Below are positions 571 through 27,220 of a stretch of DNA of 33,778 nt, in pieces. The stretch is taken from assembly GCA_020720045.1 (NCBI GenBank), contig DYPH01000066.1, positions 1 to 33,778 on the forward strand, in the 5' to 3' direction. A model generated the notes under the pieces. That model did no database searches, was not told the origin of the DNA, and worked only from the letters and a program-made list of their open reading frames with translations. The position numbers and the translations under genes are program-made. Each line of letters begins with the position of its first letter. The stretch's first letter is position 1. Source of the DNA: Sorangium cellulosum. GTDB taxonomy: Bacteria; Myxococcota_A; Polyangia; Polyangiales; Polyangiaceae.

Positions 571-580
571 GTACGGGCGT

Positions 581-2233: not shown

Positions 2234-2280
2234 ACGGCGAAACGTAGCATGGCCCGTCGCGATGGGCGTCGCGAACGGTC

Positions 2281-2301
2281 ACAAATTAATTTAAAGATAA
2301 T
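2281..2301. promoter_or_regulatory. AT-rich divergent promoter region with palindrome
   Basis: This 21-bp AT-rich island lies in the 135-bp divergent gap between the FGE lipoprotein and the pseudokinase, in otherwise GC-rich DNA. It contains the perfect palindrome AAATTAATTT (2283-2292) and a possible -10 box GATAAT (2296-2301) facing the pseudokinase. No good -35 box is visible. Promoter or operator function is inferred from composition and position. Confidence 0.4.
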
Positions 2302-2368
2302 GAGAGTTTCCACCCCCACCACGCTGGCCACGACAATGCGTGCCTCCTCGTGGTAGTCCCCTCTGGGC

Positions 2369-4000: not shown

Positions 4001-4009
4001 ATGAATTCG

Positions 4010-4726
4010 TTAAGAATTTGGAGCGATGGCCGCAAGCATCCTTCCTGAGGCGGCGCCATCCCTCCGGAAGGAATGGTACTCGTCATCGCAGTAGGTGCAG
4101 CCGCCTACGAGCGCGATTGCTTCCTTTGAAAGTCCACTTTTTTCCAATTGAAATGCGACGCACGCCCGAAGATCGACGAGCGGCTTCCCGGCGCGCGATC
4201 GTCCGTTTGCGAAGCGACGATCTTCCGGCATCGCCCCGCCGTCGACGAGAGCATCGACGACCTCCGGGCCGACCTCGAAGCAGCAGGGCCCGATGGCGGG
4301 GCCGATCGCCGCCAAGATGGTGCCCGGCCGGCTACCGAGTCGAGCGACCGCCGCGGGAGCGATCCCAGCGACGACGCCACGCCAGCCGGCGTGAACGGCA
4401 GCGACGGCCCCGGAAACGCGATCGGCGAGGAGGATCGGCACGCAGTCGGCGGTGCGGACACCGACGGCGGGACCACCAGGAAACGAAAGAAGTCCATCCG
4501 CTTCCGTCTGCTCGGAGCTTACCGAGCCTTCGACGAGGGTCGCCCCGTGGACCTGCTTGGTCTGCCGGACTTCGCCAAGGCCGGTTGCGACCGCAAAGGC
4601 GGCGAGAGCCGCCCCGCGCCCGGGCGCCTCGAAGGCGTGGTCGCTCGCCTCCTGCGCGCTCCGAAGGCTGAAGCCGTGGCGGAAGGGGCCGAGGAGTGGA
4701 GTGCGAAGGGGCACGGGGGCAGGCAT
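4010..4726 (-). CDS. pgeF: PgeF/YfiH-family multicopper-like protein (peptidoglycan editing factor)
   Basis: YfiH/DUF152 (laccase-domain) family, 238 aa. Members were called polyphenol oxidases; E. coli PgeF removes misincorporated L-Ser from UDP-MurNAc peptide precursors, and related proteins act on purine nucleosides. Metal ligands are visible: H60 in QVHG, C95 in TADC and H112 in HAGWRG, plus GPAIGPCCFEVG and the C-terminal CTYCDDEYHSFRRDG. The frame is open upstream to 5266, but that extension lies opposite the kinase gene and is spurious. The ATG at 4726 (MPAPVPL) gives the normal family length. It is convergent with the pseudokinase (9-bp gap) and divergent from the active kinase. A peptidoglycan role would suit the nearby PBP, but that link is inference. 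Confidence 0.92.
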   Translation of the reverse strand: MPAPVPLRTPLLGPFRHGFSLRSAQEASDHAFEAPGRGAALAAFAVATGLGEVRQTKQVHGATLVEGSVSSEQTEADGLLSFPGGPAVGVRTADCVPILLADRVSGAVAAVHAGWRGVVAGIAPAAVARLGSRPGTILAAIGPAIGPCCFEVGPEVVDALVDGGAMPEDRRFANGRSRAGKPLVDLRACVAFQLEKSGLSKEAIALVGGCTYCDDEYHSFRRDGAASGRMLAAIAPNS

Positions 4727-4755
4727 AGCGCCGACGATAGCTTGAGATTCTGGGT

Positions 4756-4784
4756 TTGACAGCGCACCGCTCTGTGGCTGTAGT
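4756..4784 (+). promoter_or_regulatory. Sigma-70-type promoter for the Ser/Thr kinase
   Basis: A perfect -35 TTGACA (4756-4761) is followed after 17 bp by TGTAGT (4779-4784), which matches TATAAT at four of six positions. The predicted start of transcription near 4791 is only about 5 nt before the kinase ATG, so the mRNA would be almost leaderless. No Shine-Dalgarno is visible there. Confidence 0.5.
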
Positions 4785-4795
4785 AGGCAGACCGC

Positions 4796-6037
4796 ATGGC
4801 GACCGCCGACCCTTCCCCGACGACGAGTGCAGGCGCAACGGGCGCGTCGTCTGGGCGTGCCGATCCATTTATCGGCAAGACGATTTTCGACGCTCAATAC
4901 GAGATTCAGGAGCGCATCGGCGCGGGGGGAATGGGCGCTGTCTACAAGGCCTTCCAGCCGGAGATGAACCGCTTCGTCGCCGTGAAGGTGCTTCACGCCC
5001 GCCTTACCGGTCGTCAAGACCTCGCCGCACGCTTCCGCCGCGAGGCGCGAGCGATGAGTCACCTGTCCCACCCAAATACCGTCCGAGTCCTGCACTTTGG
5101 CGAAATTGAAGAAGGTGTACTCTGCATCGTGATGGAGCTCTTGGAGGGGAAGAACCTGCACGGCGTTGTCCGAAGCAGCGGCCCCTTGGCTCCGGCGCGT
5201 GCCCTCCGGATCGTCGCGCAGGCCGCCTTCGCCCTCGATGAAGCGCACCTGTCTGGGATCATTCATCGGGATTTGAAGCCGGAGAACCTATTCGTCTGCG
5301 CGAAGGGGCCGACGAGCGACTTCGTGAAGGTTCTCGACTTCGGTCTCGCGAAGGTCTCACCGAGGGAGGTCGGCCCCGAGTCGATCCAGCTCACGAAGGA
5401 GGGGATGGTCTTCGGAACGCCCGAGTTCATGAGCCCCGAACAGGCGCAGGCGCTCCCGCTCAGTCCGGCCAGCGACGTCTATGCGCTCGCCGTGATTCTC
5501 TACGAAGCCTTGACGGGGAAGTTGCCCTTCGACGCTCGTTCTCCCAACGATTTCTTGAAGATGCACGCTTCGGCCCCGCCGATCCCCCTCGACGAGCGCG
5601 TCGACGGACTCAAGTTCCCGAAGGCGCTCGTTCAACTCGTTGACCGCGCACTCGCGAAGCGGCCCGAAGATCGCTTCCCGTCGGCGGCCGCGTTCGGCGA
5701 TGCCCTCCTCGCGCTCGCCAACGAAATCTCCCTTCCAAGCTCCATTAGCCTCCTCCCTGCGTCGGCGTCGGCACCGCCCGTGGCGACCGCGGCGACCTCG
5801 GAGGGGGCGGCCGCGAAGCTGCCCGATCTCCGCGGCTCCTCGGAGACCGACTCCGAGCCGATTTCTCGCGGGCAGAGCGGCATTCGCCAACGCTCGGTCC
5901 CGGCGCCCGAGCTGGCGGCGCCTCCTCCGGCCCCCGTGCCGGTGACGGCCCCTCGTTCGGCGATCCCTTCGTACGTGCTCTTCTTTGCCGGTCTCGCCAT
6001 CGGCATCGGCGCTGCGGCGCTCCTGTTCCGCCACTGA
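4796..6037 (+). CDS. Tail-anchored Hanks-type Ser/Thr protein kinase
   Basis: PknB-like Ser/Thr protein kinase, 413 aa, with a complete catalytic set: glycine loop IGAGGMGAVYKA, VAVK (K64), HRDLKPEN (D159), DFG (D181), GTPEFMSPEQ activation segment, and SDVYALAVILYEALTG. Residues about 300-385 are a low-complexity Pro/Ala/Ser linker. The C-terminus is a single membrane helix (YVLFFAGLAIGIGAAALLF) with no extracellular sensor such as PASTA or FGE, so the kinase faces the cytoplasm as a tail-anchored protein and its input signal is unknown. It starts just downstream of a TTGACA promoter. The penicillin-binding protein follows after 61 bp on the same strand, which may mean co-transcription. Confidence 0.93.
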   Translation: MATADPSPTTSAGATGASSGRADPFIGKTIFDAQYEIQERIGAGGMGAVYKAFQPEMNRFVAVKVLHARLTGRQDLAARFRREARAMSHLSHPNTVRVLHFGEIEEGVLCIVMELLEGKNLHGVVRSSGPLAPARALRIVAQAAFALDEAHLSGIIHRDLKPENLFVCAKGPTSDFVKVLDFGLAKVSPREVGPESIQLTKEGMVFGTPEFMSPEQAQALPLSPASDVYALAVILYEALTGKLPFDARSPNDFLKMHASAPPIPLDERVDGLKFPKALVQLVDRALAKRPEDRFPSAAAFGDALLALANEISLPSSISLLPASASAPPVATAATSEGAAAKLPDLRGSSETDSEPISRGQSGIRQRSVPAPELAAPPPAPVPVTAPRSAIPSYVLFFAGLAIGIGAAALLFRH

Positions 6038-6038
6038 C

Positions 6039-6057
6039 CGCGGGCAAAATCCCCGCG
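6039..6057 (+). other. Intercistronic hairpin between kinase and PBP genes
   Basis: CGCGGG (6039-6044) pairs with CCCGCG (6052-6057) around a 7-nt loop. No T-tract follows, so it is not a clear intrinsic terminator. It could be an mRNA-processing or partial attenuation element, or chance in GC-rich DNA. Confidence 0.25.
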
Positions 6058-6098
6058 ATTCTGGCGTAAATTGTTCAGATAGGACTACGTTCTGCGCC

Positions 6099-8816
6099 GT
6101 GAAGCGCCCGGAAGATCCTTCGAATTCGCCGCCATCGGAGGATGCCTTCGCGCCGACGGAGAGGGATCCTGCAAAATCGCCGGCCGAGGCCCCGGTCGTT
6201 GTGGGCCCGCCTTCTCTCGCGCCGCGGTTGCCGCGCCCTTCGGAACCACGCCGCGATCGGGAGGTTTCGGCGCGGAATCGGGTGAACGTCCGCGACGTTT
6301 CCGAGGATGCCGAGGCACCCCGCAAACCATCGACTCTTCGACGGGCGGATCGAACGGCCAAACCGAGCATGTTCCGTCGCGCCCTTTACGTCCTTCGAAC
6401 GGCCGCCCTCTTTGGGCTTGCGCTTGCGGTCGGCGCCGGGATCGCCCTCGCCCTCTACGTGCGAAAGCTCGAAGGAGAGCTGCCTGAAGTTAAGGAACTC
6501 AAAGGCAATTACAAGCCACCGCAGGTGACGCGGATCCTCGGTCGGGACAAGACCATTTTGGCCGAAGTCTTCACGGAGCGCCGTACCGTCGTCCCGATCG
6601 GGGACCTTCCTCCCCACGTAAAGCTCGCTGCTCTCGCCGCAGAGGATGCCAATTTTTATGAGCACGAAGGGCTCAATTATATTGGTATTTTTCGTGCGAT
6701 GCTCGTGAATCTTCGCCACGGAAAGTGGAAGCAGGGGGGCTCGACGATCACCCAGCAGGTGGTCAAGAACGTCCTTCTCGACCCGGAAAAATCCTTCCGT
6801 CGCAAAGTTCGTGAGGCGCTTCTTGCCCGCCGGCTTGAGCAGACTTTGTCGAAAGACGAAATCCTCGAACTGTATTTGAACCACATCTACTTCGGGCGTG
6901 GTCGCTACGGCATCGAGGAGGCGGCTCGCGATAGCTTCGGCAAGAGTGCCAAGGATCTCTCCATTGCGGAGGCGGCTCTTCTTGCCGGAACGATCGCGTG
7001 TCCGGAGAGCTGTTCCCCCCGGAAGGACCCCAAGCGCGCCCTCGAGCGGCGCGCTTTCGTCCTCGACCAGATGAACGCGAAGGGGTTCTTTCGCGGCGCC
7101 GAGGCCGACTTCGAAGCGGCCCGCGTCGAGACGGTGCATCTTGCAGCTATTGCGGAAACCCACGACGAACTTGCGCCGGAAGTCGTGAGCTACGTTCGCA
7201 GACTTCTTCATGATTTGGAGCCAGAACGGGCAACGCGTGGCGGCTTCACCGTCGAGACGACGATCGACCCAAAGCTTCAGCGGCTCGCGCGCGACTCTGT
7301 CGTCACGAACCTTGCCGCCTTCGACAAGCGTCGAGGCCTCACCGGCCCACTTAAGGTTCCGCAACTCCTTGATAAACGGGGAAAGGCGAAGCCGCTCGGT
7401 CGCTGGGAAAAGCCCTGGGAAGGGGCTCCGCAAGCCTACCGGACCTACGTCGGCATCGTGGGGGCCGCCGATGACGCTGCGGGGACGTTTGACGTTCAGG
7501 TGGGTAACGTCACCGGCGTCGTAAAATTGTCCGACTACCCCCGCTACAATCCACAAAAATTGGCACCAAGTGGGTTTGCCCCCCCGGGGGCATTTGTGCG
7601 CGTGTCCTTGCTTGCGCCGCCAGCAAGCAAAGATGGAAAAGACGGAAAAGACGCAAAGAACGACACCACCCCGCCCGATGGAAAACCGGGCTATAAAGTC
7701 CCACTTCGTCTCGAAATTGGCCCCGAAGCGGCATTTGTTGCTCTCGACGCACGGACCCGCGATGTGCTTGCCCTCGTCGGGAACTACGAAGGGGCCCCGT
7801 CCGGGCTCGACCGCGTCAACCAGGCGGAACGCCAGCCGGGGTCGACCTTCAAGCCAATTCTCTACGGGTACGCCCTGAAGAGCCGCCGATGGACGCCGGC
7901 GAGCATGGTCGACATCAATCCGCAGTCGTTTGGAAATTACAAACCTTCAAACTACGAAGGCTGGACGGCGAAAGATCCTTTGCGGCTTCGCGAGGTGTTG
8001 GCGAACTCGGTGAATGTTGGCGCCGTGCGGGTCATGGAAGACGTCGGACCAGCAAACATTGTCTCGTTCGCCCAAGCGCTGGGAATCAAATCGAAGCTCG
8101 CCCCCGATCTCTCCCTCGCGCTTGGCAGCTACGAGGTCAAACCGATCGAACTGGCCGGCGCCTATGCCACATTCGCTACGCTTGGAACCTACGTAGAGCC
8201 TCGATTTGTAACGCGAATCGTCGGCCCGGAGGGCAAGGAAGTGCCGCTGCCCGAGAGGGCCGCACCGAAGCGGGTGATGGACGACGCCGAGGCTTGGCTG
8301 CTCGTCGACATGATGAAGAGCGTCGTCGACCACGGAACGGCGATCCGCGCGAAGAGCCTTAGCCGCCCGGTCGCAGGGAAGACGGGCACGAGCAACGATT
8401 CGAAAGATACGTGGTTTGCCGGCTTTTCCCCCGACTTCGTCGCCGTGAGCTGGGTCGGCTTTGACGACGGGCGCCCCCTCGGGGCGGGGGAAGCGGGGGG
8501 CGTCACCGCTCTCCCGCCATGGATCGCCTTCATGAAGGGGGCCGAGGAAGGCAAGCCGGCCGTCGACTTTCCGAAACCTGCTGGCATTGTGACCGTAGCC
8601 GTCGACAAGAAAACGGGATTGCTCCCCTTCGCCGACGACCCGGAAACCATGGATGAAAATTTCCTCGCAGGGACCGAGCCAAAGGATGTCGCCGAGCCGG
8701 TAGCACCGGATGGTGGCGTCCCAGAAGAGGGCGGTTTACCGACACTTCCGCCTCCGGGCACCGTCGAAGAGTCGACGGACGCCTCGGTCTCCGCGCGCCC
8801 TGACGCAGCCCGATGA
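6099..8816 (+). CDS. Class A penicillin-binding protein (PBP1A-type)
   Basis: Bifunctional peptidoglycan glycosyltransferase/DD-transpeptidase, 905 aa from the GTG at 6099. An approximately 90-residue Pro/Arg-rich cytoplasmic tail precedes one membrane helix (after M91). GT51 domain: catalytic E182 in EDANFYEHEG, GGSTITQQVVKN, and LYLNHIYFGRGRYGIEEAA. A large OB-like insert (about 420-545) separates it from the transpeptidase, which has STFK (S582), SVN (S637) and KTGTS (K761). An in-frame ATG at 6369 would start at the membrane helix. An upstream in-frame ATG at 5985 lies inside the kinase gene and is unlikely. It overlaps the histidine kinase by ATGA. The kinase 61 bp upstream could regulate it; that is inference. 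Confidence 0.95.
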   Translation: MKRPEDPSNSPPSEDAFAPTERDPAKSPAEAPVVVGPPSLAPRLPRPSEPRRDREVSARNRVNVRDVSEDAEAPRKPSTLRRADRTAKPSMFRRALYVLRTAALFGLALAVGAGIALALYVRKLEGELPEVKELKGNYKPPQVTRILGRDKTILAEVFTERRTVVPIGDLPPHVKLAALAAEDANFYEHEGLNYIGIFRAMLVNLRHGKWKQGGSTITQQVVKNVLLDPEKSFRRKVREALLARRLEQTLSKDEILELYLNHIYFGRGRYGIEEAARDSFGKSAKDLSIAEAALLAGTIACPESCSPRKDPKRALERRAFVLDQMNAKGFFRGAEADFEAARVETVHLAAIAETHDELAPEVVSYVRRLLHDLEPERATRGGFTVETTIDPKLQRLARDSVVTNLAAFDKRRGLTGPLKVPQLLDKRGKAKPLGRWEKPWEGAPQAYRTYVGIVGAADDAAGTFDVQVGNVTGVVKLSDYPRYNPQKLAPSGFAPPGAFVRVSLLAPPASKDGKDGKDAKNDTTPPDGKPGYKVPLRLEIGPEAAFVALDARTRDVLALVGNYEGAPSGLDRVNQAERQPGSTFKPILYGYALKSRRWTPASMVDINPQSFGNYKPSNYEGWTAKDPLRLREVLANSVNVGAVRVMEDVGPANIVSFAQALGIKSKLAPDLSLALGSYEVKPIELAGAYATFATLGTYVEPRFVTRIVGPEGKEVPLPERAAPKRVMDDAEAWLLVDMMKSVVDHGTAIRAKSLSRPVAGKTGTSNDSKDTWFAGFSPDFVAVSWVGFDDGRPLGAGEAGGVTALPPWIAFMKGAEEGKPAVDFPKPAGIVTVAVDKKTGLLPFADDPETMDENFLAGTEPKDVAEPVAPDGGVPEEGGLPTLPPPGTVEESTDASVSARPDAAR

Positions 8817-10699
8817 GGCTCGCGCTTCGACTTTTTCTCGCCTTCGGACTTCTCGGCGCGGCGACGCCGTTGCTACTCGGTCATCGGCTCCGCGAAGAGC
8901 GAAGAAACGACGAAGTCGGGCGCTTTCACAAAGACCTTTCCGGCGCCTGCGATGCCATCGCGGGCGAGCTGGGGCGCGAGGCGGAGCGCGACGCAAGACT
9001 CTTGCAGAATGCATGCGCTTCGCCGGACCTCGCCGAGAAGCTTCGGGAAGAGCCCCCCACGGGACGTGCCCCCTCAAGTGCGGGCGCCGCTGCCCGACGC
9101 GCGGCGGCGGAGGGGATCGTCGCCCGGCTCGGCCCCTACGTGAGCGGAACGCGGAACGCCTTCGACCTCGACGAACTTGTGCTCCTTCGCAGCGACGGGG
9201 ACCCGATCGCTGCCGATCCACGTGTACTCCACACGCACTCGCCAGCGACGTTTGCCAAAGAAATTCTTGGGGCTCCGCGCGCGAGCCTTGCACCGCGCAC
9301 GCCGAGCGATCTCCGTGCCGGCCTCGCCTTTCGCGGGGAACCTTCCGATCCGACCGAGCTGGTGCGCTGCCGCCTTGCCGGTCGTCCGGACGTCACCCTC
9401 CTTGGGGCCCGCAATTTGGTTCCGGCCGCCGAGCGGCTCGCGAAGCCCTTCGGGGTCGCCCCGAGCTTTGCCACGTCGGCCCCACGGGACCCGCCGGGGA
9501 CGGTACGCGCCGTATGCGCGTTGCCGTTGGGGGATACGACCGTCTCCCTCGCCGTCACGAAGAGCGAAGCTGCTCTCCTCGCTGCGCTCGCGAGTGGCGA
9601 CAGAACCGTGTATGGTACATCTGGTTTTGCAGCGGCGGCGGCGGTCCTTCTCGCCCTCCTCTTTGCGCGAAATCTTGGAAAGCCGCTGGCGCAGCTCGCC
9701 GAGGAAGCCTCGAAAGTTGCCGAAGAAAAGGCGCGTCCGCTCGGCGTGCGCGGCTCCGGAGAAATTGCCGAATTGGCCCAAGCTTTCGATCGAATGATCG
9801 AAGATCTCGCGGCCACTCGTCGGAAGCTCGCCGCCGCCTCTCGCGTCGCCGCGTGGCGCGAAGTCGCCCGCCGGGTGGCGCACGAGATAAAAAATCCGCT
9901 CATGCCGATCCGCGCCGCCGTCGAGACGTTGCGCCGCCTACGCGCGCGGGAAGATCCACGTTTCGACGAATATTTCGACGAAGCTACGCGGACGGTCCTC
10001 GATGAAGTCCAGCGCATCACGACGATCGTCGGCGAATTTACCCGCTTCGCGCGCCTCCCGCCGCCAAAGCCGACGACCGTCGATCCGCGCGAAGTGCTCA
10101 ATCACGTCGTCACCCTCCACGACGGTAAGGAAGGAATCTCGATTCTTGCGCACATCGACGGCGACCCGCCAACGATTTTCGCCGACCGGGATCAGGTTGT
10201 TCAGGTCTTGGTGAATTTGGTGCAAAATGCACAAGATGCCGTCGCTGAAGCCAACGCTAGCGAAGTTCCGTCAGGAAATTCCTTGGCGCGTGCGGACGGG
10301 CGCCCGCGGAAAGTCCTTGTGCGGATCTCCGGTCGAACGGCGGCCCCGAAGAGCCGTGTCGCCCCTTCGTCGCGTTCGTCCGGTGCCGGAACGAGCGCTG
10401 CAGCAGCCGGCTTTGATGGCGTCGTCTTTGATGTGGAAGACGACGGAAATGGGGTCCCCGAGGCCTTCGTCGACCGTTTGTTTGAGCCCTACGCAACGAC
10501 AAAACAGACCGGAACCGGCCTTGGGCTTGCGATCGCTGCGCGAATTGCCGTCGAGCATGATGGCGATTTGTCGTATCGACGTGCAGCCAGCGGTGGCGCC
10601 TGCTTCCGCCTCGTGCTCCCGTGCACCGGCCCGCCGGGGGACGAAGCCCCCGTCTCCTCGCTCCCCAACATGGCCGCTTCGCGCCGGATTTCCTCGTGA
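8813..10699 (+). CDS. NtrY-like membrane sensor histidine kinase
   Basis: Two-component sensor, 628 aa. It has an N-terminal membrane helix, a periplasmic sensor segment (about 25-260) of no recognised family, a second helix (about 265-285), a HAMP-like linker, and a HisKA domain with phospho-acceptor H357 in RRVAHEIKNPLMPI. The HATPase region shows N472 in NLVQNAQDA, DVEDDGNGV, and TTKQTGTGLGLAIA. The EIKNPLMPI form of the H-box is typical of the NtrY/NtrB branch, whose partners are often sigma-54 activators, but no response regulator lies next to it, so the partner is unknown. The start codon overlaps the PBP stop (ATGA), which suggests translational coupling and a possible cell-wall stress input. 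Confidence 0.9.
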   Translation: MRLALRLFLAFGLLGAATPLLLGHRLREERRNDEVGRFHKDLSGACDAIAGELGREAERDARLLQNACASPDLAEKLREEPPTGRAPSSAGAAARRAAAEGIVARLGPYVSGTRNAFDLDELVLLRSDGDPIAADPRVLHTHSPATFAKEILGAPRASLAPRTPSDLRAGLAFRGEPSDPTELVRCRLAGRPDVTLLGARNLVPAAERLAKPFGVAPSFATSAPRDPPGTVRAVCALPLGDTTVSLAVTKSEAALLAALASGDRTVYGTSGFAAAAAVLLALLFARNLGKPLAQLAEEASKVAEEKARPLGVRGSGEIAELAQAFDRMIEDLAATRRKLAAASRVAAWREVARRVAHEIKNPLMPIRAAVETLRRLRAREDPRFDEYFDEATRTVLDEVQRITTIVGEFTRFARLPPPKPTTVDPREVLNHVVTLHDGKEGISILAHIDGDPPTIFADRDQVVQVLVNLVQNAQDAVAEANASEVPSGNSLARADGRPRKVLVRISGRTAAPKSRVAPSSRSSGAGTSAAAAGFDGVVFDVEDDGNGVPEAFVDRLFEPYATTKQTGTGLGLAIAARIAVEHDGDLSYRRAASGGACFRLVLPCTGPPGDEAPVSSLPNMAASRRISS

Positions 10700-10741
10700 A
10701 CAAGGACCCCAGAGGCGGTTGACCGTCATCGTGAGTGCCGT

Positions 10742-11527
10742 ATGACCGCCCCCACCCGCGCCGCCGACCCCGCCCCCTCGAACTCCGTCCCAGCGTCGGA
10801 CGTTCCCGCGTTTGATCGGATCGATGTTTCGACGAAGCTCTTCATTTGGCTGGCGTCGATCTTCGTCCTCTGTCTCGTCCTCGGCGACGTGATCGGCGGC
10901 AAGTTGCTCCGCACACCGCTTGGCGAAATTTCTGTGGGAATTCTGCCATTTCCAGTCACCTTCCTCCTCACAGACGTCGTGAACGACTTCTACGGGAAGC
11001 GGGGGGCACGCTTCCTCACGCTGCTCGGATTCGCGATGGCGGTCCTCGCCTGGGTCATCCTCCAGGCGTCGACGGCGCTCCCGATCTCCTCTCGGAGTTA
11101 TTTTACGCAGGCGGAATTCGCCAAAATCTTTGGTGGAAGTGCCCAGCTCTTTGTTGCGAGCATGATCGCATTTTTGGTTGGTCAATTCCTTGATATTCAG
11201 GTTTTTCAATTCTGGAAAGCCCTTACGAATTCGAAGCACCTCTGGCTCCGCGCCACCGGGTCGACGCTTCTGAGTCAAATCGTCGATACCGTCGCAATTA
11301 ATGTGATTTTCTGGACGTGGGCGGCGGCGAGCGACCCCGGCTCCGAGCTTGGACAGATGTCTTCCAGCCAGCGATGGGGATGGATTTTTGCCAAAATTGG
11401 GCGTGAATATGGGATTAAGCTCGTGGTTGCCGTCGCATTGACACCCGCCGTTTATGCCATTCACACGGTCGTCGTGAAACGCCTCGGAATCGCGCCAGAA
11501 CCGGTCGTTGCTACGGGGCGTGCATGA
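10742..11527 (+). CDS. YhhQ/VUT-family queuosine-precursor transporter
   Basis: Integral membrane protein, 261 aa, of the VUT/ECF-like family (YhhQ in E. coli), which imports preQ0/preQ1 for queuosine modification of tRNA. About six hydrophobic helices are visible. The family signature segments are LGDVIGGKLL, PFPVTFLLTDVVNDFYGK and VGQFLDIQVFQFWK, then a late SQIVDTVAINVIF. The ATG at 10742 lies 42 bp after the histidine kinase stop; no clear Shine-Dalgarno precedes it. It ends in an ATGA overlap with the zinc-ribbon/zincin gene. No other queuosine genes are in the window, so salvage of an external precursor is inferred from the family. Confidence 0.9.
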   Translation: MTAPTRAADPAPSNSVPASDVPAFDRIDVSTKLFIWLASIFVLCLVLGDVIGGKLLRTPLGEISVGILPFPVTFLLTDVVNDFYGKRGARFLTLLGFAMAVLAWVILQASTALPISSRSYFTQAEFAKIFGGSAQLFVASMIAFLVGQFLDIQVFQFWKALTNSKHLWLRATGSTLLSQIVDTVAINVIFWTWAAASDPGSELGQMSSSQRWGWIFAKIGREYGIKLVVAVALTPAVYAIHTVVVKRLGIAPEPVVATGRA

Positions 11528-12777
11528 GCTCCGAGCGTCGCATCCGCGGCACCCTGTTCTCCGGGGGCCGCTTCGAGTTTGCCCTTGCCGACGATGCGCC
11601 GTCCGACCGCGCGGGACATGGGCCGGCTGCCGATTGGGAACGCCTCGCGCGTGGGGCGCTCACCGTCGATGGGCGTTCAAGGAGCGTAGATTCGCTTCTC
11701 GCGCGCGACTTTCATGCGCTTCGAGCGCTCGCGACGGCCCGCGGTCTGCTCCCCGATCCTGCGGTTTCGATCCCCTGTTCCAATTGCGAAAAGCGCTTCG
11801 TCGTACGTCCCGGTGCCGCGTTTCCCACCGGCCCCTTCGATGACGCCGAGCTCCATGACGACGAACTCGATGCCCCTTTTCTTTACGACGTCCCGCACCT
11901 GCTCGCCGGCCAGTCGGGCGAGGTCTATGTGCGAATCGCGGAGCGGACGGTCGCCGAATTGCTCCCCGCATGGCGCGCCGTCGCCGACGGGCGCACCGCT
12001 TTTTCGCGCGCGTTTGTCGATGCTTGGGGACTTCGCGCTGTTGGCGATGCAAGTGAGCCGGGGCCGATCGCGCAGGCCCTTCGCAGCGACGAGATCCTGG
12101 CGCTCTCGGTAGAGGAACTCCTTCAAGCGGCCCACTACCCGGCCCGTCTGACCGCAGAAGTTCGTTGCCCGTCGTGCGACGCGGCGAACCTTGTCGAAGT
12201 CCCGTTCTATCGGGAATTCCTCGACGATGAGGTCACCGAAATGCCGCAGGCCCCTTTCGGCCCAAGCCGAACCGGCTTCCCCGACGATGCGACGTTTGCG
12301 CGCGTCGCGGAGGGGATAGCTGCCCCCTTTTTGGCCGCCGATGCCGAGCACGCAGAGGGGGCAATCGTACCCCGTCCGCCGGTTGCCTTTCGTGTCGACG
12401 CTGGAATTCCGGCTGTCGATGCTGCTGGCGTTCCACTTCTCGGTTCCTATCGTCCAAGCGTCGACGGCCTCCCGCCGATCGTGACTCTCTACACGCGCTC
12501 TTTTCGTGCGCTTGACGCCGAGGCCGCCGAAGAGGGCGCCGACTGGCACGAGGAACTTGAAGAAACCGTTCGTCACGAGTTCGCTCATCATGCCGCGGCG
12601 CTTGCCGGGTTTGACGAGGTGGATGACGACGAACAGGCGGAGATCGACGAAGAAGATGCCCGCCGTCGCGGACGTCGCGTCGTCGGCCGTGAACGTTCAC
12701 CGCTTCGCCACCCGTTCTTTTGGGCGATCGTGCTCGCTCTTGTTGCGATGGTCGTCCTCGCGATCCGCGGCCGCTAG
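11524..12777 (+). CDS. Two-zinc-ribbon protein with zincin-like domain and C-terminal membrane anchor
   Basis: Unrecognised composite protein, 417 aa. It has two CxxC knuckles (C85/C88 in CSNCEKRF and C215/C218 in CPSCDAAN), each in a similar context, suggesting an internal duplication over about 260 residues. Near the C-terminus VTLYTRSF, then VRHEFAHHAA (H351, E352, H355) and a Glu/Asp-rich stretch resemble the minimal zincin family (PF06262-like, HExxH). The last 22 residues form one hydrophobic helix ending RGR, a tail anchor. The layout of the N-terminal half faintly recalls phage T4 gp28-like or contractile-injection-system accessory proteins, but I cannot support this. Peptidase activity is plausible, not shown. 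ATGA overlap with the transporter suggests coupled translation. Confidence 0.75.
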   Translation: MSSERRIRGTLFSGGRFEFALADDAPSDRAGHGPAADWERLARGALTVDGRSRSVDSLLARDFHALRALATARGLLPDPAVSIPCSNCEKRFVVRPGAAFPTGPFDDAELHDDELDAPFLYDVPHLLAGQSGEVYVRIAERTVAELLPAWRAVADGRTAFSRAFVDAWGLRAVGDASEPGPIAQALRSDEILALSVEELLQAAHYPARLTAEVRCPSCDAANLVEVPFYREFLDDEVTEMPQAPFGPSRTGFPDDATFARVAEGIAAPFLAADAEHAEGAIVPRPPVAFRVDAGIPAVDAAGVPLLGSYRPSVDGLPPIVTLYTRSFRALDAEAAEEGADWHEELEETVRHEFAHHAAALAGFDEVDDDEQAEIDEEDARRRGRRVVGRERSPLRHPFFWAIVLALVAMVVLAIRGR

Positions 12778-19441: not shown

Positions 19442-19519
19442 CGGTCTTCCAGGGCCGAAGGGCGTGAACGTCGCGCACCGTTTGCGCGCCAGGGAAAATC
19501 CCGAGTAAGAGCCGCCGCC

Positions 19520-22450
19520 ATGACGACTCTTGCGCGCGCCCCGCACCCCTACGCGACCTTCGTCCACAAGGTCGACAAGCCGGCGCGTTACCTTGGTGGC
19601 GAGTACGGCTCGGCGCTGCGCGATTGGGACCTCGGCCCGGACGGCCATCCGCCGGCGCGCGTCTGCCTCGCCTTTCCCGATATCTATGACATCGGGATGA
19701 GCCATCTCGGCTTTAAGATCCTCTACAAAATCCTCAATGACGACCCGCGGACGCTCGCCGAAAGAGCGTTTGTTCCCTGGGTCGACATGGACCGCGAACT
19801 CCGCGCGCGCGGGCTGCCGCTGCTTTCGTTGGAGAGTGCGCGCCCGCTCAAGGATTTCGACGTCGTCGGCGTCTCGCTCCAGTTTGAGCTGACCTACACC
19901 AATATCCTCACGCTTCTCGAACTCGGCGGCATCCCGCTGACGACCGCCGAGCGCGCCGACGGCGACCCGCTCGTCCTCGCCGGTGGACCTTCGGCGACGC
20001 ACTCGGAGCCGATCGCGACGATCCTGGATGCGATCGTCATCGGCGACGGCGAGGAGCGCATGACCGAGGTCGCGCTCCTTTGGACGCGGCTGAAACACGA
20101 AGGAAAACCTCGAAGTGAGCGCCTTCGGGCCCTCGCCGGGCTTCGCGGCGTCTACGTGCCAAGCCTCTACGAAACCGAGGTCGAACCGCAGACCGGCTTC
20201 CACGTTGTCAAGCGCCCGAGCGACCCGGCACTGCCGTTCCCGATCGTGCGGACCCTCGTCGACGACCTCAACAAGTTCCCGTTCCCGGCGACCGGACCCG
20301 TCGGCGGACCGGAGGCGATTTTCGAGCGGATGAGCATCGAAATCGCCCGCGGCTGCACGGAAGGGTGCCGCTTTTGCCAGGCGGGAATGATCTATCGCCC
20401 GGTTCGTGAGCGCGACCCCGATCAAATCGTCGAAACGGTCCTCGAAGCAGTCAAGAAGAGCGGTTACGACGAGGTCTCTCTCACGTCGCTTTCGACGGCC
20501 GACTATTCCTGCATTGCGCCGCTCGTCAAAAAGGTCGTCGACAAGCTCGCACCGGAGAAAGTCTCCCTCGGCGTCAGCAGTCTCCGCGCCTACGGGCTCG
20601 AGGAGAACGTCCTCGACGACATGCAGCGGGTCCGCGCGAGCGGGGTGACCTTCGCCCCCGAGGCCGGCAGCCAGCGGATGCGCGACGTGGTGAACAAGAA
20701 CGTCACCGAGGAGCAGCTCCACGAGACGGCAGACCGAGTCTTTTCGCGTGGTTGGAACGACATGAAGCTCTATTTCATGATCGGCCTGCCGACCGAGGAG
20801 GAGAGTGACGTCCGCGAGATCGTCCGCGTCGGCAAACGGACGCGCGAGATCGGCCGTGCAGCAAAGGCGCGAATCAATCATCCGGGGACGCCTACGGTGA
20901 CCGTGAGCGTATCGACCCACGTACCGAAGCCTCATACGCCCTTTCAGTGGGCGGCGATGGACACCTATGAGACGGTCGTTGAGAAGCAGAAGTGGCTCCG
21001 GGAGGAGGCGCGCCTCGCCCGCGGCGTCGAACTCAAGACCCACGACTCGCGGACGAGCTGGCTGGAAGCGGTCTATGCGCGCGGCGATCGGCGCCTGTCG
21101 GACGTCCTGGTGACCGCCTACAAGAACGGCGCACGCTTCGACTCCTGGGACGACCATCTCAAGCTTTCGATCTGGGAAGAAGCCTTTCAAATCCATGGGA
21201 TCGACCCGCAGGTTTGGCTCGGCACCCTCCCGGTGACCGCGCGCCTCTCCTGGGACCACATCGACGTCGGCCTGGAGGAGGGCTTCCTCCTTTCCGAGTA
21301 CCGGAAGGCGCTGAAGAGCCGCTTGTCGCCGCCGTGCGGCAAGGTCGCCGGCATGTTCGTCCAGCACACGAACCTTCAAGATGCCGAAGCCGACACGCGA
21401 CGACTCGTTTGTTACGATTGCGGCGTCGCCTGCGACTTGTCGGCGATGAAAAATGAGCGTCTTGTTTATTTGAAAAAGCTCGGCGCAGAGGCCCCCCGCG
21501 CGCCGGCTCCGCTCCCGGTCGTCCAGCCGAAGCGTCAGCACAAGGCGCCCGCCTCGTTCGTGCAAGGCGAGGCGCGCCGCTACCGGTTCCTCTACGAAAA
21601 GAGCGGCCCTTCCGCCTTCTTGGGGCACCTGGACGTCATCCGCGCCCTCCCGCGGACCTTCCGTCGCATCGACGTTCCTATGTATTATACACAGGGCTTC
21701 CACCCCAAACCGGACATGGTCTTCGGCCCCGCGCTCTCGCTTGGCGTCGCGAGCCTTTGTGAGGCGGTCGACCTCAAGCTGACCGCCGACGTCGACCCGG
21801 ACGCCATCGCCGCCGAGCTCACCGCCACCTCCGCCGAGGGGATCCGGTTCTTCGCGGCCGCGAAGCTCGACGCGGAAGATCCTCCTTTGTCGAAGGTCGT
21901 CGATAGCGCTGAATACCTATTTGCGATTCCGCGCAGTTTCCTCAATGATGCCGTGGTTGATGCGGCCCTTGCCCACTTTGCTGCCCGCGAACATGCCTAT
22001 TTGATTCGCGGCGGTGACGAAGCTGGTGGGAGTGGAAAGCGGGGGAAGTTCGCAGGTATTGGGAAGAAGCTCGACGTGAAGCGCTACGTCGAACGCCTCG
22101 AACGGATGCCCGAAGATTCCGCACGTGCCATCTTCTCAAAGGCCGGTCTTGTGGGCGACTTCCACGCGATCCATCTCGCGATCGGCACCGATCAGAACGG
22201 CTCTGCGAAGCTCACCGAGGTGCTCAGCGTCCTCTTTGAACGACCGGAAGCCGAGATTCCCTGGCAGGCGGTGCGGACCGCCCTTGGCGCCCGCCTGGAG
22301 GACGGAACCCTCGCCCCGCTGACCGACCTTTCGACGATGCGTGCCTGTGCGGCCGCCAAAAAAGCCCAGGCGGAGCGCGATGCCGCGGCGGCGAAGGTCG
22401 CCCACGACGCCGCCCTCGTCGCCGGCGAACTCGCTGCACTTACGTCGTGA
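19520..22450 (+). CDS. B12-binding/radical SAM protein fused to DUF2344
   Basis: Fusion of a TIGR03960-type radical SAM protein with a TIGR03936/DUF2344 domain, 976 aa. Residues about 40-250 form a B12-binding-like region (PDIYDIGMSHLGFKILY, VVGVSLQFELTYTN). The radical SAM core binds its cluster with C279, C283 and C286 (CTEGCRFC). A cysteine pair follows at CYDCGVAC. From about 687, RYRFLYEKSGPSAFLGHLD and YYTQGFHPKPDM mark DUF2344. In many bacteria this gene lies beside ribonuclease G/E and ribosomal protein genes, suggesting an RNA-related modification, but the substrate is unknown and that context is absent here. Downstream gene overlaps by GTGA. Confidence 0.92.
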   Translation: MTTLARAPHPYATFVHKVDKPARYLGGEYGSALRDWDLGPDGHPPARVCLAFPDIYDIGMSHLGFKILYKILNDDPRTLAERAFVPWVDMDRELRARGLPLLSLESARPLKDFDVVGVSLQFELTYTNILTLLELGGIPLTTAERADGDPLVLAGGPSATHSEPIATILDAIVIGDGEERMTEVALLWTRLKHEGKPRSERLRALAGLRGVYVPSLYETEVEPQTGFHVVKRPSDPALPFPIVRTLVDDLNKFPFPATGPVGGPEAIFERMSIEIARGCTEGCRFCQAGMIYRPVRERDPDQIVETVLEAVKKSGYDEVSLTSLSTADYSCIAPLVKKVVDKLAPEKVSLGVSSLRAYGLEENVLDDMQRVRASGVTFAPEAGSQRMRDVVNKNVTEEQLHETADRVFSRGWNDMKLYFMIGLPTEEESDVREIVRVGKRTREIGRAAKARINHPGTPTVTVSVSTHVPKPHTPFQWAAMDTYETVVEKQKWLREEARLARGVELKTHDSRTSWLEAVYARGDRRLSDVLVTAYKNGARFDSWDDHLKLSIWEEAFQIHGIDPQVWLGTLPVTARLSWDHIDVGLEEGFLLSEYRKALKSRLSPPCGKVAGMFVQHTNLQDAEADTRRLVCYDCGVACDLSAMKNERLVYLKKLGAEAPRAPAPLPVVQPKRQHKAPASFVQGEARRYRFLYEKSGPSAFLGHLDVIRALPRTFRRIDVPMYYTQGFHPKPDMVFGPALSLGVASLCEAVDLKLTADVDPDAIAAELTATSAEGIRFFAAAKLDAEDPPLSKVVDSAEYLFAIPRSFLNDAVVDAALAHFAAREHAYLIRGGDEAGGSGKRGKFAGIGKKLDVKRYVERLERMPEDSARAIFSKAGLVGDFHAIHLAIGTDQNGSAKLTEVLSVLFERPEAEIPWQAVRTALGARLEDGTLAPLTDLSTMRACAAAKKAQAERDAAAAKVAHDAALVAGELAALTS

Positions 22451-23263: not shown

Positions 23264-23295
23264 GCGAAAAGGCCCGTGCGCTAGCGTCTTTTCGC
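23264..23295. terminator. Possible bidirectional terminator between convergent genes
   Basis: GCGAAAAG (23264-23271) pairs with CTTTTCGC (23288-23295), giving A-rich and T-rich edges on both strands between the TSUP permease and the S41 protease. The loop is long (16 nt), and the inverted repeat includes the protease stop codon. Plausible but weak. Confidence 0.35.
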
Positions 23296-25128
23296 GGGGC
23301 GCGGGGCGAGGAGGGCCAGGGCTTTGCAGGTCGCGTCGTCGACCTTGCGAGTGCTCGCATCCGGGAGCGCGGCGAGGCACTTTTCGAGGAAGCTCGCGCC
23401 GGGGTTCGGAAAGGGGACCGCGTGTCCGATCGCTGTCTTTTCGCGAACATCGGGGCCGATGAAGCTGGGCGGCGCTGCCAGGGTGTCGGCCTCGGTTTCG
23501 ATGGCCCCCTCGACGAGGAACGGGAAGGGGATCGTCGGCACGAGGCCGCGCCGTTGGACCGGGCGCCCGTCGGGGAGCGCGTAAAGGTAGGTCGTGAGCC
23601 GGAAGGCGCCGACCGAATGCGGTGGGCGTGCGCCGTCGTCTTCGAAGGACTGGACGCACCCTTTTCCAAAGGTCGTCGTCCCGATCACCGGCCCGCGGCG
23701 GTAGGCGTCGAGGGCGCCGGCCAGCATTTCGGCGGCGCTTGCGGTGTCGTGATCGACGAGGGCGGCGACGGGGCCGGCCCACTGTTCGGCGGCGGGCGGC
23801 GTCTCGGTGCGATCGACGGAGACCGCCTCTTCGTGGCGGCTCTTCAAGGGAAAGAGCGGGACGTCGGGGAGGAAGGCGGCGAGCGCCTCAATGGCGCCAT
23901 CCATGGAGCCGCCGCCGTTGCCGCGCAGGTCGAGGATGATGCCGGCGAGCGCGGGGCTCTTTAGGCGCTCCTCGCGGATAAGTACTCGTAGATCCTTACC
24001 AAATTCGTCATGCACGTCATGCACGGTGACCAGAAGCAGGCGCTGATCGCCCCAGGGGAGGTCCCGATGGGGGAGCGTGTAGGGTGCATCTTTTCCGTCG
24101 GGGCCCGGCTTCGGTCGCGGAATCACGCCGCGGACGAGCTTGCCGTCGTGGATCCAAAGGGCGGGGACGGCGGCGACGGTGCGATCGGCGAAGGCGGCGA
24201 CGGCGACTTCATCGAGGGACTCCGGCGAGAGCCCCGCGAGGAAAATCGCTGGGGATGGTGCGACGGTCCCCGGCTCGACGGCCACGAGCACGTCGCCATC
24301 GACGAGCGGGGCTCGCGCGCCGCTCTCGAGCCGCGCGCCGCCGAGGGTTCCAGTGGCGCGCTCAAAGAGGCGCGGCGTGGCGTCGTCGGTGAGGTCGGTG
24401 TCGTAGATGCTCGTCGACTCGCTCGTCGGAGCCCAGTTTCCATGGCCGTCGACGAGCGGAACCCACCCCCGAAGGAGCGAGGCGCGCAAGAGCCCGGCGG
24501 CGGTGCTCGGCGTCGCTGCCGGAAAAAGATGCGCTTCGAGCGTCTGTCGGTAGCGCTCGCCGCGCTTGCCGAGGGCGGCGGTCATCGTTGCGATGGCGGC
24601 TCGAAAGCGTGCATCTTCCACCGGATCGGCGTTCTCGGTCGTCGGATTGAGCGCCATCGCCGCCGCTTCGCCCAGGGCCATTGGCCCGCTTTGACTGGGG
24701 CCCAAAAAGCGCGTTTTCGCGGCGCTATTCGCCGCGTCGAGGGTCACTCCGAGGCGCTCGCTGGTGCGGCAGTCCCCCCCTTTTCCGGAAAGCTCGCGGA
24801 GGAGCCCTTTCCGCTCGGCGTCCAAGGCGCGCTCGACCGTCCCATCGACGGGGGCCCAAAGGCCGTAGGGATCGAGCCAGTCGGCGGTCGCCGCCGCAAT
24901 TTTTGCTGGGTCTGCCGCCGGCGGATCGAACGCGAGGTGGGCGTCGAAGGTGGCGACGGCGCGATGGAGTTCTTCGCAAGAGAGCGTCGCACGCGTCCCG
25001 CTCGGGAAGGGGAAGAGGTTCTCATCCGCCTTCGCGTCGTCAGATTCGGTTGGTGTTTCCTGGGCATACGCCGGCGTAAGCCCCAGGAGGAGCGCCGCGA
25101 GCCAGGGGAAAAACGGGGGGGGACGCAC
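23281..25128 (-). CDS. Prc/Tsp-like S41 C-terminal processing protease
   Basis: Periplasmic serine protease of family S41, 615 aa, with a signal peptide (cleavage near AYA-QE). An N-terminal helical region like that of Tsp contains WLDPYGLW. A degenerate PDZ region (about 240-330) precedes the peptidase core: LDLRGNGGG near 400, nucleophile S464 in DTASAAEML, and general-base K489 in TFGKG. The 25-residue Ser-Lys spacing equals that of E. coli Tsp. Such proteases degrade tagged or misfolded envelope proteins and trim cell-wall hydrolases. The RpoH-like sigma gene lies 68 bp upstream on the same strand, so they may be co-transcribed. Confidence 0.88.
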   Translation of the reverse strand: MRPPPFFPWLAALLLGLTPAYAQETPTESDDAKADENLFPFPSGTRATLSCEELHRAVATFDAHLAFDPPAADPAKIAAATADWLDPYGLWAPVDGTVERALDAERKGLLRELSGKGGDCRTSERLGVTLDAANSAAKTRFLGPSQSGPMALGEAAAMALNPTTENADPVEDARFRAAIATMTAALGKRGERYRQTLEAHLFPAATPSTAAGLLRASLLRGWVPLVDGHGNWAPTSESTSIYDTDLTDDATPRLFERATGTLGGARLESGARAPLVDGDVLVAVEPGTVAPSPAIFLAGLSPESLDEVAVAAFADRTVAAVPALWIHDGKLVRGVIPRPKPGPDGKDAPYTLPHRDLPWGDQRLLLVTVHDVHDEFGKDLRVLIREERLKSPALAGIILDLRGNGGGSMDGAIEALAAFLPDVPLFPLKSRHEEAVSVDRTETPPAAEQWAGPVAALVDHDTASAAEMLAGALDAYRRGPVIGTTTFGKGCVQSFEDDGARPPHSVGAFRLTTYLYALPDGRPVQRRGLVPTIPFPFLVEGAIETEADTLAAPPSFIGPDVREKTAIGHAVPFPNPGASFLEKCLAALPDASTRKVDDATCKALALLAPRPAKRR

Positions 25129-25196
25129 GCAGGATTCGAGGGGCGGTCGGTTCGCGAACGCCAGCGCCGGAACCTCACAATCCCTAGCAAACCTCG

Positions 25197-26018
25197 TCAG
25201 GAAGCGCGCAACAATGCCGGCTTTCCATACACGGCGAGCTTCGTCCGCAGCTTCCCGCAGGCGCGTTCTTCCAGCTGGCGGACGCGTTCTTTGCTGACGC
25301 CGAGGAGATCGCCCAGCTGTTGCAGGGTGAGCGGCTCGTCATTCATCAATCGCTCCTTGACGATGAGGCGCTCGCGGTCGCTCAGCGATTTCAGTGCGGC
25401 GGCGACGGCGTCTTCGGCGTGGTGCTGGCGCTCGTTGTCGTCGGCCTCTTCTTCGGGGCTCGGGCCGGTGGCGCGCAGCATTTCAATCGGGGGGGCGAGG
25501 TCGCCGGGGGCGTGATCGAGGCTCTGTTCGCGGCCGGCGATCACCGGTAGGAGCTGGCGGACGCGCTCCGGGGAGAGGCCCGACATTTCCGCGAGCTTCT
25601 CGGGATCGGCTTCGCGGGTCGTCCGGTAGGCGCGGAGGGCGCGCCGCTCGCCTTTGGTCGTCCCGAGGCGGACGACGCGGTAGCTTCGTACGACGTATTC
25701 GCGAATTTCGGCGCGAATCCAATAGGCTGCGTAGGTTGCGAGCCGGCAGTCCTTCGTCAAGTCGAACTTCCGGGCGGCGCGAAGGAGGCCGAGGTTCCCC
25801 TGCTGGACGACGTCCTCCATCGGAACTCCCCAGCGCCGATACTCCATCGCGATCGCCATCACGAAGGGGAGGCACGCTTCGACGAGGCGCTCGCCGGAGC
25901 GGTTGTCGCCGGCGGCGAATTTTCGCGCGAGTTCACGCTCCGCCTCTCGCTCAAGGGGCGAGAAGGTGGAGAGATTCGTTCGCCAAGCTTGCAGCGCAGA
26001 ACTGTCGGAAAAACCCAT
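25197..26018 (-). CDS. RpoH-like alternative sigma factor
   Basis: Sigma-70 family, group 3 (sigma-32-like), 273 aa, lacking region 1.1. Region 2 spans about 43-112 with EDVVQQGNLGLLRAA and FDLTKDCRLATYAAYWIRAE. The segment after region 2.4 (LGTTKGERRALRAYR) sits where RpoH proteins carry their RpoH box. Region 4 (about 210-265) has LTLQQLGDLLGVSKERVRQLE, the -35-binding helix-turn-helix. ATG at 26018 is preceded by AAAGGGG, a good ribosome site; frames further upstream are non-coding. A near-perfect sigma-54 promoter lies about 200 bp upstream. Heat-shock or envelope-stress control is inferred from family and from the protease downstream. Confidence 0.92.
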   Translation of the reverse strand: MGFSDSSALQAWRTNLSTFSPLEREAERELARKFAAGDNRSGERLVEACLPFVMAIAMEYRRWGVPMEDVVQQGNLGLLRAARKFDLTKDCRLATYAAYWIRAEIREYVVRSYRVVRLGTTKGERRALRAYRTTREADPEKLAEMSGLSPERVRQLLPVIAGREQSLDHAPGDLAPPIEMLRATGPSPEEEADDNERQHHAEDAVAAALKSLSDRERLIVKERLMNDEPLTLQQLGDLLGVSKERVRQLEERACGKLRTKLAVYGKPALLRAS

Positions 26019-26214
26019 GGCTCGGAACCCCTTTTCGCGAATTGAATGCCGCGAGACCTCGACGCGAATGCGCATCGTCGCTCCACGGAACCGTCGGTGT
26101 CGTGCATGGCGTCGATGCGTGAAGAGCCGCGATCCTCGCGGGGGTGCACGTTTCGACCACGGGCGTGCGCTGCGCAGTGCAGCTTCTCCGTGGATGCGAC
26201 GACGACCGACCCGT

Positions 26215-26230
26215 TGCGAACGACGTGCCA
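26215..26230 (-). promoter_or_regulatory. Sigma-54 (RpoN) -24/-12 promoter
   Basis: On the minus strand the sequence reads TGGCACGTCGTTCGCA. Against the RpoN consensus TGGCACR-N4-TTGCW only one defined base differs (C for T), and the invariant GG and GC are exactly 10 bp apart. A pyrimidine precedes it, as in the consensus. Transcription would start near 26203 and read into the RpoH-like sigma gene. Confidence 0.7.
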
Positions 26231-26268
26231 AGTGCGAAACACGCGCATTCCGCAGCGCAGCCTGCGCG

Positions 26269-26280
26269 CTTTGCGCAAAG
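26269..26280. promoter_or_regulatory. Palindrome, candidate enhancer-binding site
   Basis: CTTTGCGCAAAG is a perfect 12-bp palindrome centred about 45-50 bp upstream of the -24 element. It could bind a dimeric sigma-54 activator. On the + strand it is followed by a T7 run, but no + gene ends there, so a terminator role is unlikely. Confidence 0.35.
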
Positions 26281-26324
26281 AGCGATTTTTTTCGGCGATC
26301 CGGATGCAAACCCTGCGCGAATTG

Positions 26325-26356
26325 GAAAAGCCGGCCCCCACACGTGGGACCGGCTT
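26325..26356 (-). terminator. Intrinsic terminator of the metallo-hydrolase gene
   Basis: Read on the minus strand, AAGCCGG (26356-26350) and CCGGCTT (26334-26328) pair, with an inner CCCAC/GTGGG, followed by TTTTCC. It lies 22 bp after the stop codon of the metallo-hydrolase. Confidence 0.75.
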
Positions 26357-26377
26357 CGCGGATGGAGCCTGTTTCCG

Positions 26378-27220
26378 TCAGACCTCGATCGTGAGCCCCT
26401 CGTAGGCTGCACAGCTCGCCGGGAACAGCGCTTGAGCGCGTTTTTCTTTCACGCGGACGGCGGCGTCGTTCTGGGCCGGGTCGTGGTGGAAGAGGACGAG
26501 CTTCTTCACCGCTGCCTTCTCGGCGAGTTTGACCGCCTCGTCGAAGGTGCTGTGCCCCCAGCCGGTCTTCGGACCGCCGCCGACTTCCCCCGCGTACTCT
26601 TCGGGGGTGTACATCGCGTCGTAGACGAGGACGTCGACCCCCTTCGAGATGCGCGCAAGCTTCGGATCGACAATGCTGTAGTGCTCGGTGTCGGTCGCGT
26701 AGACCATCGATTTCCCATCGTGGTCGACCCGGTAGACCCACACGCCGTTCGGGTGGTTTCCGCGCGTATTTGAGATGCGGACGACGCCGGTCCCGTCTTT
26801 GGCGGGGAGTTCGATGACTTGACCTTCGTAGAGGTCATAAAAGTTCATCTTTGCTCCCATTTCCGTTAGGTGGACCGGGAAGCTCGGGTGGTCCATTTGG
26901 CCGGCAAGCGTCTCTTCGAGGGTACGGGAGACGTTGTTCCCGCCGTAGAGATGGATGTGGTTCCCGGGAATGAACGCCGGCGCGAAGAAGGGGAAACCCT
27001 GAATGTGATCCCAGTGGACGTGGGAAAAGAAAATCCGTGCCTCGATGGGAAGTTCTTTGACGAGCTTCTGGCCGAGGAGGCGAATCCCGGTGCCGCCGTC
27101 GAACACGAGCAGGTGACCACCCGCGCGGACCTCCACGCAGCTCGTGTTGCCGCCGATTTCCACGGTGTCAGGGCCCGGCGTCGGGATGCTGCCACGCACG
27201 CCCCAAAAGGTGATCCGCAT
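26378..27220 (-). CDS. Metallo-beta-lactamase-fold hydrolase
   Basis: Cytoplasmic MBL-fold metallo-hydrolase, 280 aa, no signal peptide. Metal motifs: HVHWDH (H67, H69, D71, H72), a His near NHPNG, ATDTEH, and GWGHSTFDEAV with the late LFHHDP. The start MRITFWGVRGSIPTPG and the ATDTEH region are typical of a phosphodiesterase-like subgroup (RNase Z and PqsE relatives), so a phosphodiester substrate such as a cyclic nucleotide is possible but not proven. It has its own terminator and is divergent from the HEAT-repeat lipoprotein. Confidence 0.88.
   Translation of the reverse strand: MRITFWGVRGSIPTPGPDTVEIGGNTSCVEVRAGGHLLVFDGGTGIRLLGQKLVKELPIEARIFFSHVHWDHIQGFPFFAPAFIPGNHIHLYGGNNVSRTLEETLAGQMDHPSFPVHLTEMGAKMNFYDLYEGQVIELPAKDGTGVVRISNTRGNHPNGVWVYRVDHDGKSMVYATDTEHYSIVDPKLARISKGVDVLVYDAMYTPEEYAGEVGGGPKTGWGHSTFDEAVKLAEKAAVKKLVLFHHDPAQNDAAVRVKEKRAQALFPASCAAYEGLTIEV

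Follow-up and report, generated by a model that had tools for sequence, protein, structure and literature searches.

In Myxococcus xanthus, the NtrC-type regulator NmpR is activated at low oxygen via the protoglobin kinase NmpU and the hybrid kinase NmpS (PMC6211767, PMC11841059). It binds GCGCA-N5-TGCGC, requires a sigma-54 site and is active in hypoxia (PMC11841059), and its targets comprise CBS-domain, universal stress protein, cbb3 oxidase, hemN and hemerythrin genes (PMC6211767, PMC11841059). The use of sigma-54 to control a further sigma factor is also on record. In Borrelia, the NtrC-type response regulator Rrp2 and sigma-54 (RpoN) turn on the sigma-70-family sigma gene for RpoS (PMC2940757), and in Escherichia coli, RpoN holoenzyme binding places a sigma-54 site before rpoH, the sigma-32 type gene (PMC8743547). 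Here, we compare with these systems a locus in a 33.8-kb window (the whole stretch of DNA that was analyzed) from a Polyangiaceae genome, in which a first-pass annotation had placed a sigma-54 promoter before an RpoH-like sigma gene.

The RpoH-like sigma gene and its neighbors

The sigma gene and its surroundings comprise the following features:
25197..26018, minus strand: RpoH-like sigma factor gene, 273 aa from the ATG favored by homology
ATG 26075, minus strand: alternative start of the sigma gene, in frame, giving 292 aa, with a better Shine-Dalgarno sequence
26378..27220, minus strand: MBL-fold hydrolase gene, syntenic neighbor upstream of the sigma gene
23281..25128, minus strand: S41 family peptidase gene, syntenic neighbor 68 bp downstream of the sigma gene
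26327..26357, minus strand: 12-bp GC-rich hairpin followed by TTTT (z -2.3)

Orthologues start at the position equivalent to ATG 26018, and the gene stops at 25197. The hairpin is likely to be the terminator of the upstream MBL-fold gene; it was not reported by the terminator consensus scan, which requires five T residues. Given this likely terminator, transcription of the sigma gene probably depends on a separate promoter.

In the encoded protein, sigma-70 family regions 2 and 4 were detected. The label RpoH-like, already used in the first-pass annotation, stands insofar as sigma-32 models are the best NCBIfam matches, whereas the scores fall below the cut-offs, with 193.8 bits against a curated cut-off of 323.1 for TIGR02392 (RpoH, sigma-32) and 198 against 241 for NF005143. 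The RpoH box has a QRKLFFNLR-like sequence. No such box is present between regions 2 and 3, where the orthologues read ERRALRAYR-like, and a closer RpoH homologue, scoring 276.7 bits to the RpoH model, is encoded in the same genome at C322. For these reasons, we name the protein RpoH-like and not RpoH, and its earlier designation as a stress sigma factor would draw on RpoH similarity only.

Orthologues share about 47 to 69% identity (99% in the same genus) and are spread over the order, in Polyangiaceae and sister families, with Sorangium cellulosum, Minicystis rosea and Labilithrix MAGs as named holders; among 377 sampled genomes of the phylum, none beyond the order was found at E below 1e-48. 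In most Polyangiaceae, the sigma gene is flanked by the MBL-fold gene and the S41 peptidase gene. In Sorangium and Minicystis (L061-L067), it is inverted with respect to both neighbors (compare 23281-27220 of the window), and a box of the kind discussed below is kept. Several sigma paralogues, mostly of Minicystis rosea (G039, a 16-Mb genome) (L113, L116-L122), were also seen, the majority of them without a recognizable box.

The sigma-54 type box in the window and across the order

Upstream of the sigma gene lies the element on which the proposed promoter is based:
26230..26215, minus strand: sigma-54 type -24/-12 box TGGCACGTCGTTCGCA, predicted transcription start at about 26204

This box agrees with TGGCACG-N4-TTGCW at 11 of 12 defined positions, with GG-N10-GC kept and a single mismatch that turns TTGCA into TCGCA. 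Upon re-reading of the window, the sequence, strand, coordinates, single mismatch and GG-N10-GC spacing given for it by the first-pass annotation were all borne out. The same holds for its placement about 200 bp upstream and in the same direction, as the box points at the sigma gene and starts 212 bp from ATG 26018 (155 bp from ATG 26075), with a predicted +1 at 26204, close to the 26203 proposed earlier. Nowhere else in the window does a sequence match the sigma-54 consensus with one mismatch or fewer; when two mismatches are allowed, there are 4 matches, against 3.8 expected from shuffles. By itself, the consensus scan of the window is not decisive, and the box alone is only modestly above chance.

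On a family matrix built without the window, TGGCACGTCGTTCGCA scores 10.5, at the low end of a family with a median near 17.7. Only two further places on both strands of the window reach about this score, and arithmetic from the matrix scan gives a chance of about 1% for such a score in a given 250-bp one-strand stretch. The box carries C at -14, where nearly all relatives have T; the same base is seen in one orthologue, CGGCACGGCCTTCGCA (L106). Judged by its score, the window's box is a weaker variant than the boxes of most relatives, and this weaker copy is likely to be active. In the same-genus genome the box is identical, and from the box to ATG 26018 the two species differ by one substitution. 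The leader (26018-26230) varies less between these two species than the coding DNA beside it. The leader RNA has no Rfam match and folds no better than shuffles (z -0.4), and the promoter scan revealed no sigma-70-like promoter in this stretch.

Across 84 distinct orthologue upstream regions, a box that keeps GG-N10-GC and matches in 9 or more of the 12 positions lies on the sense strand of 58 and on the antisense strand of 6, and the family consensus of the boxes reads (T/C)GGCAY-N6-TGCA. In a set of 63 dissimilar regions from across the order, defined as orthologue upstream regions with few 8-mers in common, GGCAY-N6-TGCA occurs in the sense orientation in 45 and is absent from both the antisense and the reversed controls; among spacers of 0 to 13, none besides 6 gives more than one match in these regions. 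Some sigma genes, for example, several Minicystis paralogues, are without a box. The first-pass annotation had proposed conservation of GG/GC in relatives as a check on the promoter, and both the identical box within the genus and its recurrence over the order speak in its favor. In these comparisons, conservation puts the box far beyond chance, and it is this conservation of orientation and spacing, not the window scan, that leads us to accept it as a real sigma-54 type element.

The base 5' of GCAY-N6-TGCA is G in 66 of 67 cases, and the base 3' of TGCA is free, which is the signature of a -24/-12 promoter and not of a symmetric operator. A symmetric repressor site was considered as well and was ruled out by this asymmetry.

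Enhancer dyads and candidate activators

Counting of words in the 200-bp stretches that precede the boxes revealed strong enrichment of words of the CGCGAAA/CGCGCAAC type, which resolve into the dyad GCGMAA-N3-TTKCGC. A dyad matrix, trained on the same 74 sequences that were scored, gave 122 matches above 9 in these sequences as opposed to 2 in shuffles and 7 in the coding control. At least two such matches are present in 41 of the 74 upstream regions, which amounts to tandem NmpR-like sites family-wide. Likewise, the plain motif GMAA-N3-TTKC is found 44 times in 11.1 kb upstream of the boxes, not at all when reversed and once in 55.5 kb of coding DNA, and its enrichment is specific to a spacer of 3. 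Distances from dyad to box cluster at 70-74, 83-86, 94-97 and 103-105, with a period of about 10.5 bp (Rayleigh p of about 1e-4), as expected if contact with the polymerase requires the activators to lie on one face of the helix. The family dyad was derived before it was compared with the NmpR paper, and it agrees with the published M. xanthus site in sequence and spacing (PMC11841059). These conserved dyads thereby support an NtrC-type activator and, with it, the two-component gating that the first-pass annotation had suggested.

In the window, the candidate sites between the hairpin and the box are as follows:
26318..26304, minus strand: candidate enhancer site 1, GCGCAGGGTTTGCAT, NmpR consensus with two deviations, GCA-N5-TGC intact
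26269..26255, minus strand: candidate enhancer site 2, GCGCGCAGGCTGCGC, one deviation from the NmpR consensus, weak alone
26269..26280, minus strand: perfect palindrome CTTTGCGCAAAG, included in a lower-scoring match to the family enhancer (26258-26280)

Site 1 is the best in the window and alone has a p of about 0.05; matches to the NmpR consensus as good as these candidate sites number 53 in the window, against 62 expected. Elsewhere in the window, a perfect NmpR-type site, GCGCACCGTTTGCGC, is located at 19473-19487; a radical SAM/DUF2344 gene (19520-22450) begins 33 bp further on.

In whole genomes, dyad matches alone show no clear excess over the reversed control, so the regulon is not readable from dyads alone; in the window's own genome, none of six dyad matches has a box in reach. 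The combined box and dyad pattern was found at 53 places in 97 related genomes, compared with 12 for the reversed pattern. Eighteen of the 53 stand before the RpoH-like sigma gene, and others precede UspA, CBS-domain, NiFe-hydrogenase-like and NmpR-like genes. A version of the combined pattern with a wrong spacer (N7), in effect a negative control, yielded 13 matches, similar to the corresponding reversed control, and none was at the sigma gene. One of the NmpR-like genes behind a box and dyad belongs to a locus with protoglobin, receiver and receiver-kinase genes, which is the NmpUTSR arrangement.

The window's genome has one rpoN and 38 sigma-54 activator-domain matches, and hence both sigma-54 and the AAA+ type of activator that such promoters require. 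No enhancer-binding gene adjoins the sigma gene in the window or in flanks of up to 3 kb of the orthologues. Two regulators of this genome, at C166 and C194, are NmpR-like, orthology to M. xanthus NmpR itself being judged from gene neighborhood and site only. The C166 regulator (G000:C166:3771-5210) has no adjoining kinase and no dyad upstream, and the C194 gene directly follows a protoglobin-PAS histidine kinase gene, ahead of a CcoI/cbb3 oxidase operon. In this C194 row (L251, G000:C194:52001-70000, 538-12070), the genes for the protoglobin-PAS histidine kinase, the NmpR-like regulator, a CcoI-type P-ATPase, a fused CcoNO cbb3 oxidase, CcoP and a CcoG-like protein follow one another, all on one strand.

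Within the family, the sigma gene and the C166-type regulator are both present in 26 genomes, one without the other in 3 and 2, and both absent in 29, as raw genome counts that ignore kinship. Outside this family, three genomes carry a paralogous RpoH-like sigma gene that has a box in front and an NmpR-like gene directly behind it (L292, L293, L294), a further link between sigma factors and activators of these kinds. In L293, universal stress protein genes are found on both sides of this pair.

Proposed mechanism, alternatives and described systems

At the level of sequence, the comparisons show that a conserved sigma-54 type box and phased enhancer dyads belong to this sigma gene family across the order. 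In the mechanism that we propose, the sigma gene would be transcribed from a sigma-54-dependent promoter at the box (26230..26215), with a start at about 26204. An NmpR-family response regulator of the NtrC type would bind the tandem dyads about 25 to 90 bp upstream of the box, loop to sigma-54 RNA polymerase and open the promoter by ATP hydrolysis, after which the RpoH-like sigma factor would direct a second gene set. The activator is probably either the C166 regulator, from a subfamily that tends to occur together with the sigma gene, or the C194 regulator, which lies beside the protoglobin kinase and the cbb3 oxidase operon, and the likely trigger is oxygen limitation. We consider this mechanism as a whole, from promoter and activator to second gene set and oxygen trigger, to be reasonably probable. 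As to its parts, the predicted sigma-54-to-sigma cascade is well supported, binding of the dyads by an NmpR-like protein is likely, and oxygen limitation as the signal is plausible by homology. A circuit common to the Polyangiales, in which an oxygen-sensing NmpR-type system acts through sigma-54 to induce the RpoH-like sigma factor and a fall in oxygen would thereby set off an entire second sigma regulon, not just a handful of genes, is put forward more tentatively, as a possibility that we would not yet favor.

Conceivably, the promoter is enhancer driven and sigma-54 dependent, but a different one of the 38 activator-domain proteins acts on it, one that has a similar Fis-type recognition helix and responds to a signal other than oxygen, be it nutrient, cell-surface or developmental. 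Dyads of the TTGC/GCAA type are common among NtrC-like activators, the number of activator-domain matches in the genome points the same way, and the C166-type regulator is an orphan without a kinase neighbor. This reading is nevertheless rather unlikely in view of the fit of the dyad to the NmpR site in both sequence and spacing (PMC11841059), the retrieval by the box and dyad pattern of UspA, CBS and NmpR-like genes, which are the kinds that NmpR controls, and the co-occurrence of the NmpR-like subfamily with the sigma gene.

We give less weight to the idea that the promoter works in the orthologues and has decayed in the window's genus, where another promoter in the conserved leader would drive the gene. 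The box is unchanged in both species of the genus, GG and GC are intact, the C at -14 recurs in the orthologue mentioned above, and the stretch lacks a sigma-70-like promoter by scan. These points argue against decay, which might otherwise explain the low score of the box (C at -14), its distance from the gene, the largest of any high-scoring box, the imperfect enhancer sites and the single substitution between box and ATG, by which the leader may be constrained otherwise. Finally, the conserved element might be no promoter at all, but either a site bound by some other regulator or a GC-rich match that arose by chance. Such an explanation could appeal to the partial symmetry of the GCA..TGC core and to a single window scan that is no better than chance, but it is highly improbable given the strict orientation to the gene, the fixed 10-base GG-GC spacing and the asymmetry in dozens of dissimilar sequences, together with helically phased dyads upstream.

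The preferred reading, a sigma-54 promoter under an NmpR-family activator, predicts the regulator, its binding sites and the transcription start for an as yet undescribed sigma factor from myxobacteria that have large genomes and many natural products, such as Sorangium and Minicystis. If it is true, the NmpR oxygen response of Myxococcus would extend to a second-layer master regulator. It would also add a conserved, testable sigma-54-to-sigma-70-family cascade. The principle of such a cascade is already known from RpoN-RpoS of Borrelia, and the present instance appears to be undescribed: no report on this sigma gene was found in the open-access literature searched.

The NmpRSTU system and NmpR regulon of M. 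xanthus (PMC6211767, PMC11841059) have in common with this locus the NtrC-type regulators, the tandem GCGCA-N5-TGCGC-like dyads before a sigma-54 box and the links to protoglobin kinases, cbb3 oxidase, UspA and CBS-domain genes. In contrast, the published regulon does not name a sigma factor as a target, whereas the present target is an RpoH-like sigma gene, which is confined to a different order. Two paralogous forms of the regulator occur here, and at the locus in the window's genome a protoglobin kinase gene lies directly beside the regulator gene. Compared with Rrp2-RpoN-RpoS of Borrelia, where an NtrC-type response regulator likewise acts with sigma-54 on a sigma gene, the second sigma factor and the organisms are different, and here phased enhancer dyads are conserved. 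With regard to enhancer DNA, the requirements of Borrelia Rrp2 are atypical. The sigma-54 site of E. coli is one of several rpoH promoters. Both there and here, such a site precedes a gene of the sigma-32 type, but the present gene belongs to an RpoH-like group of its own, and a closer RpoH homologue is encoded elsewhere in its genome.
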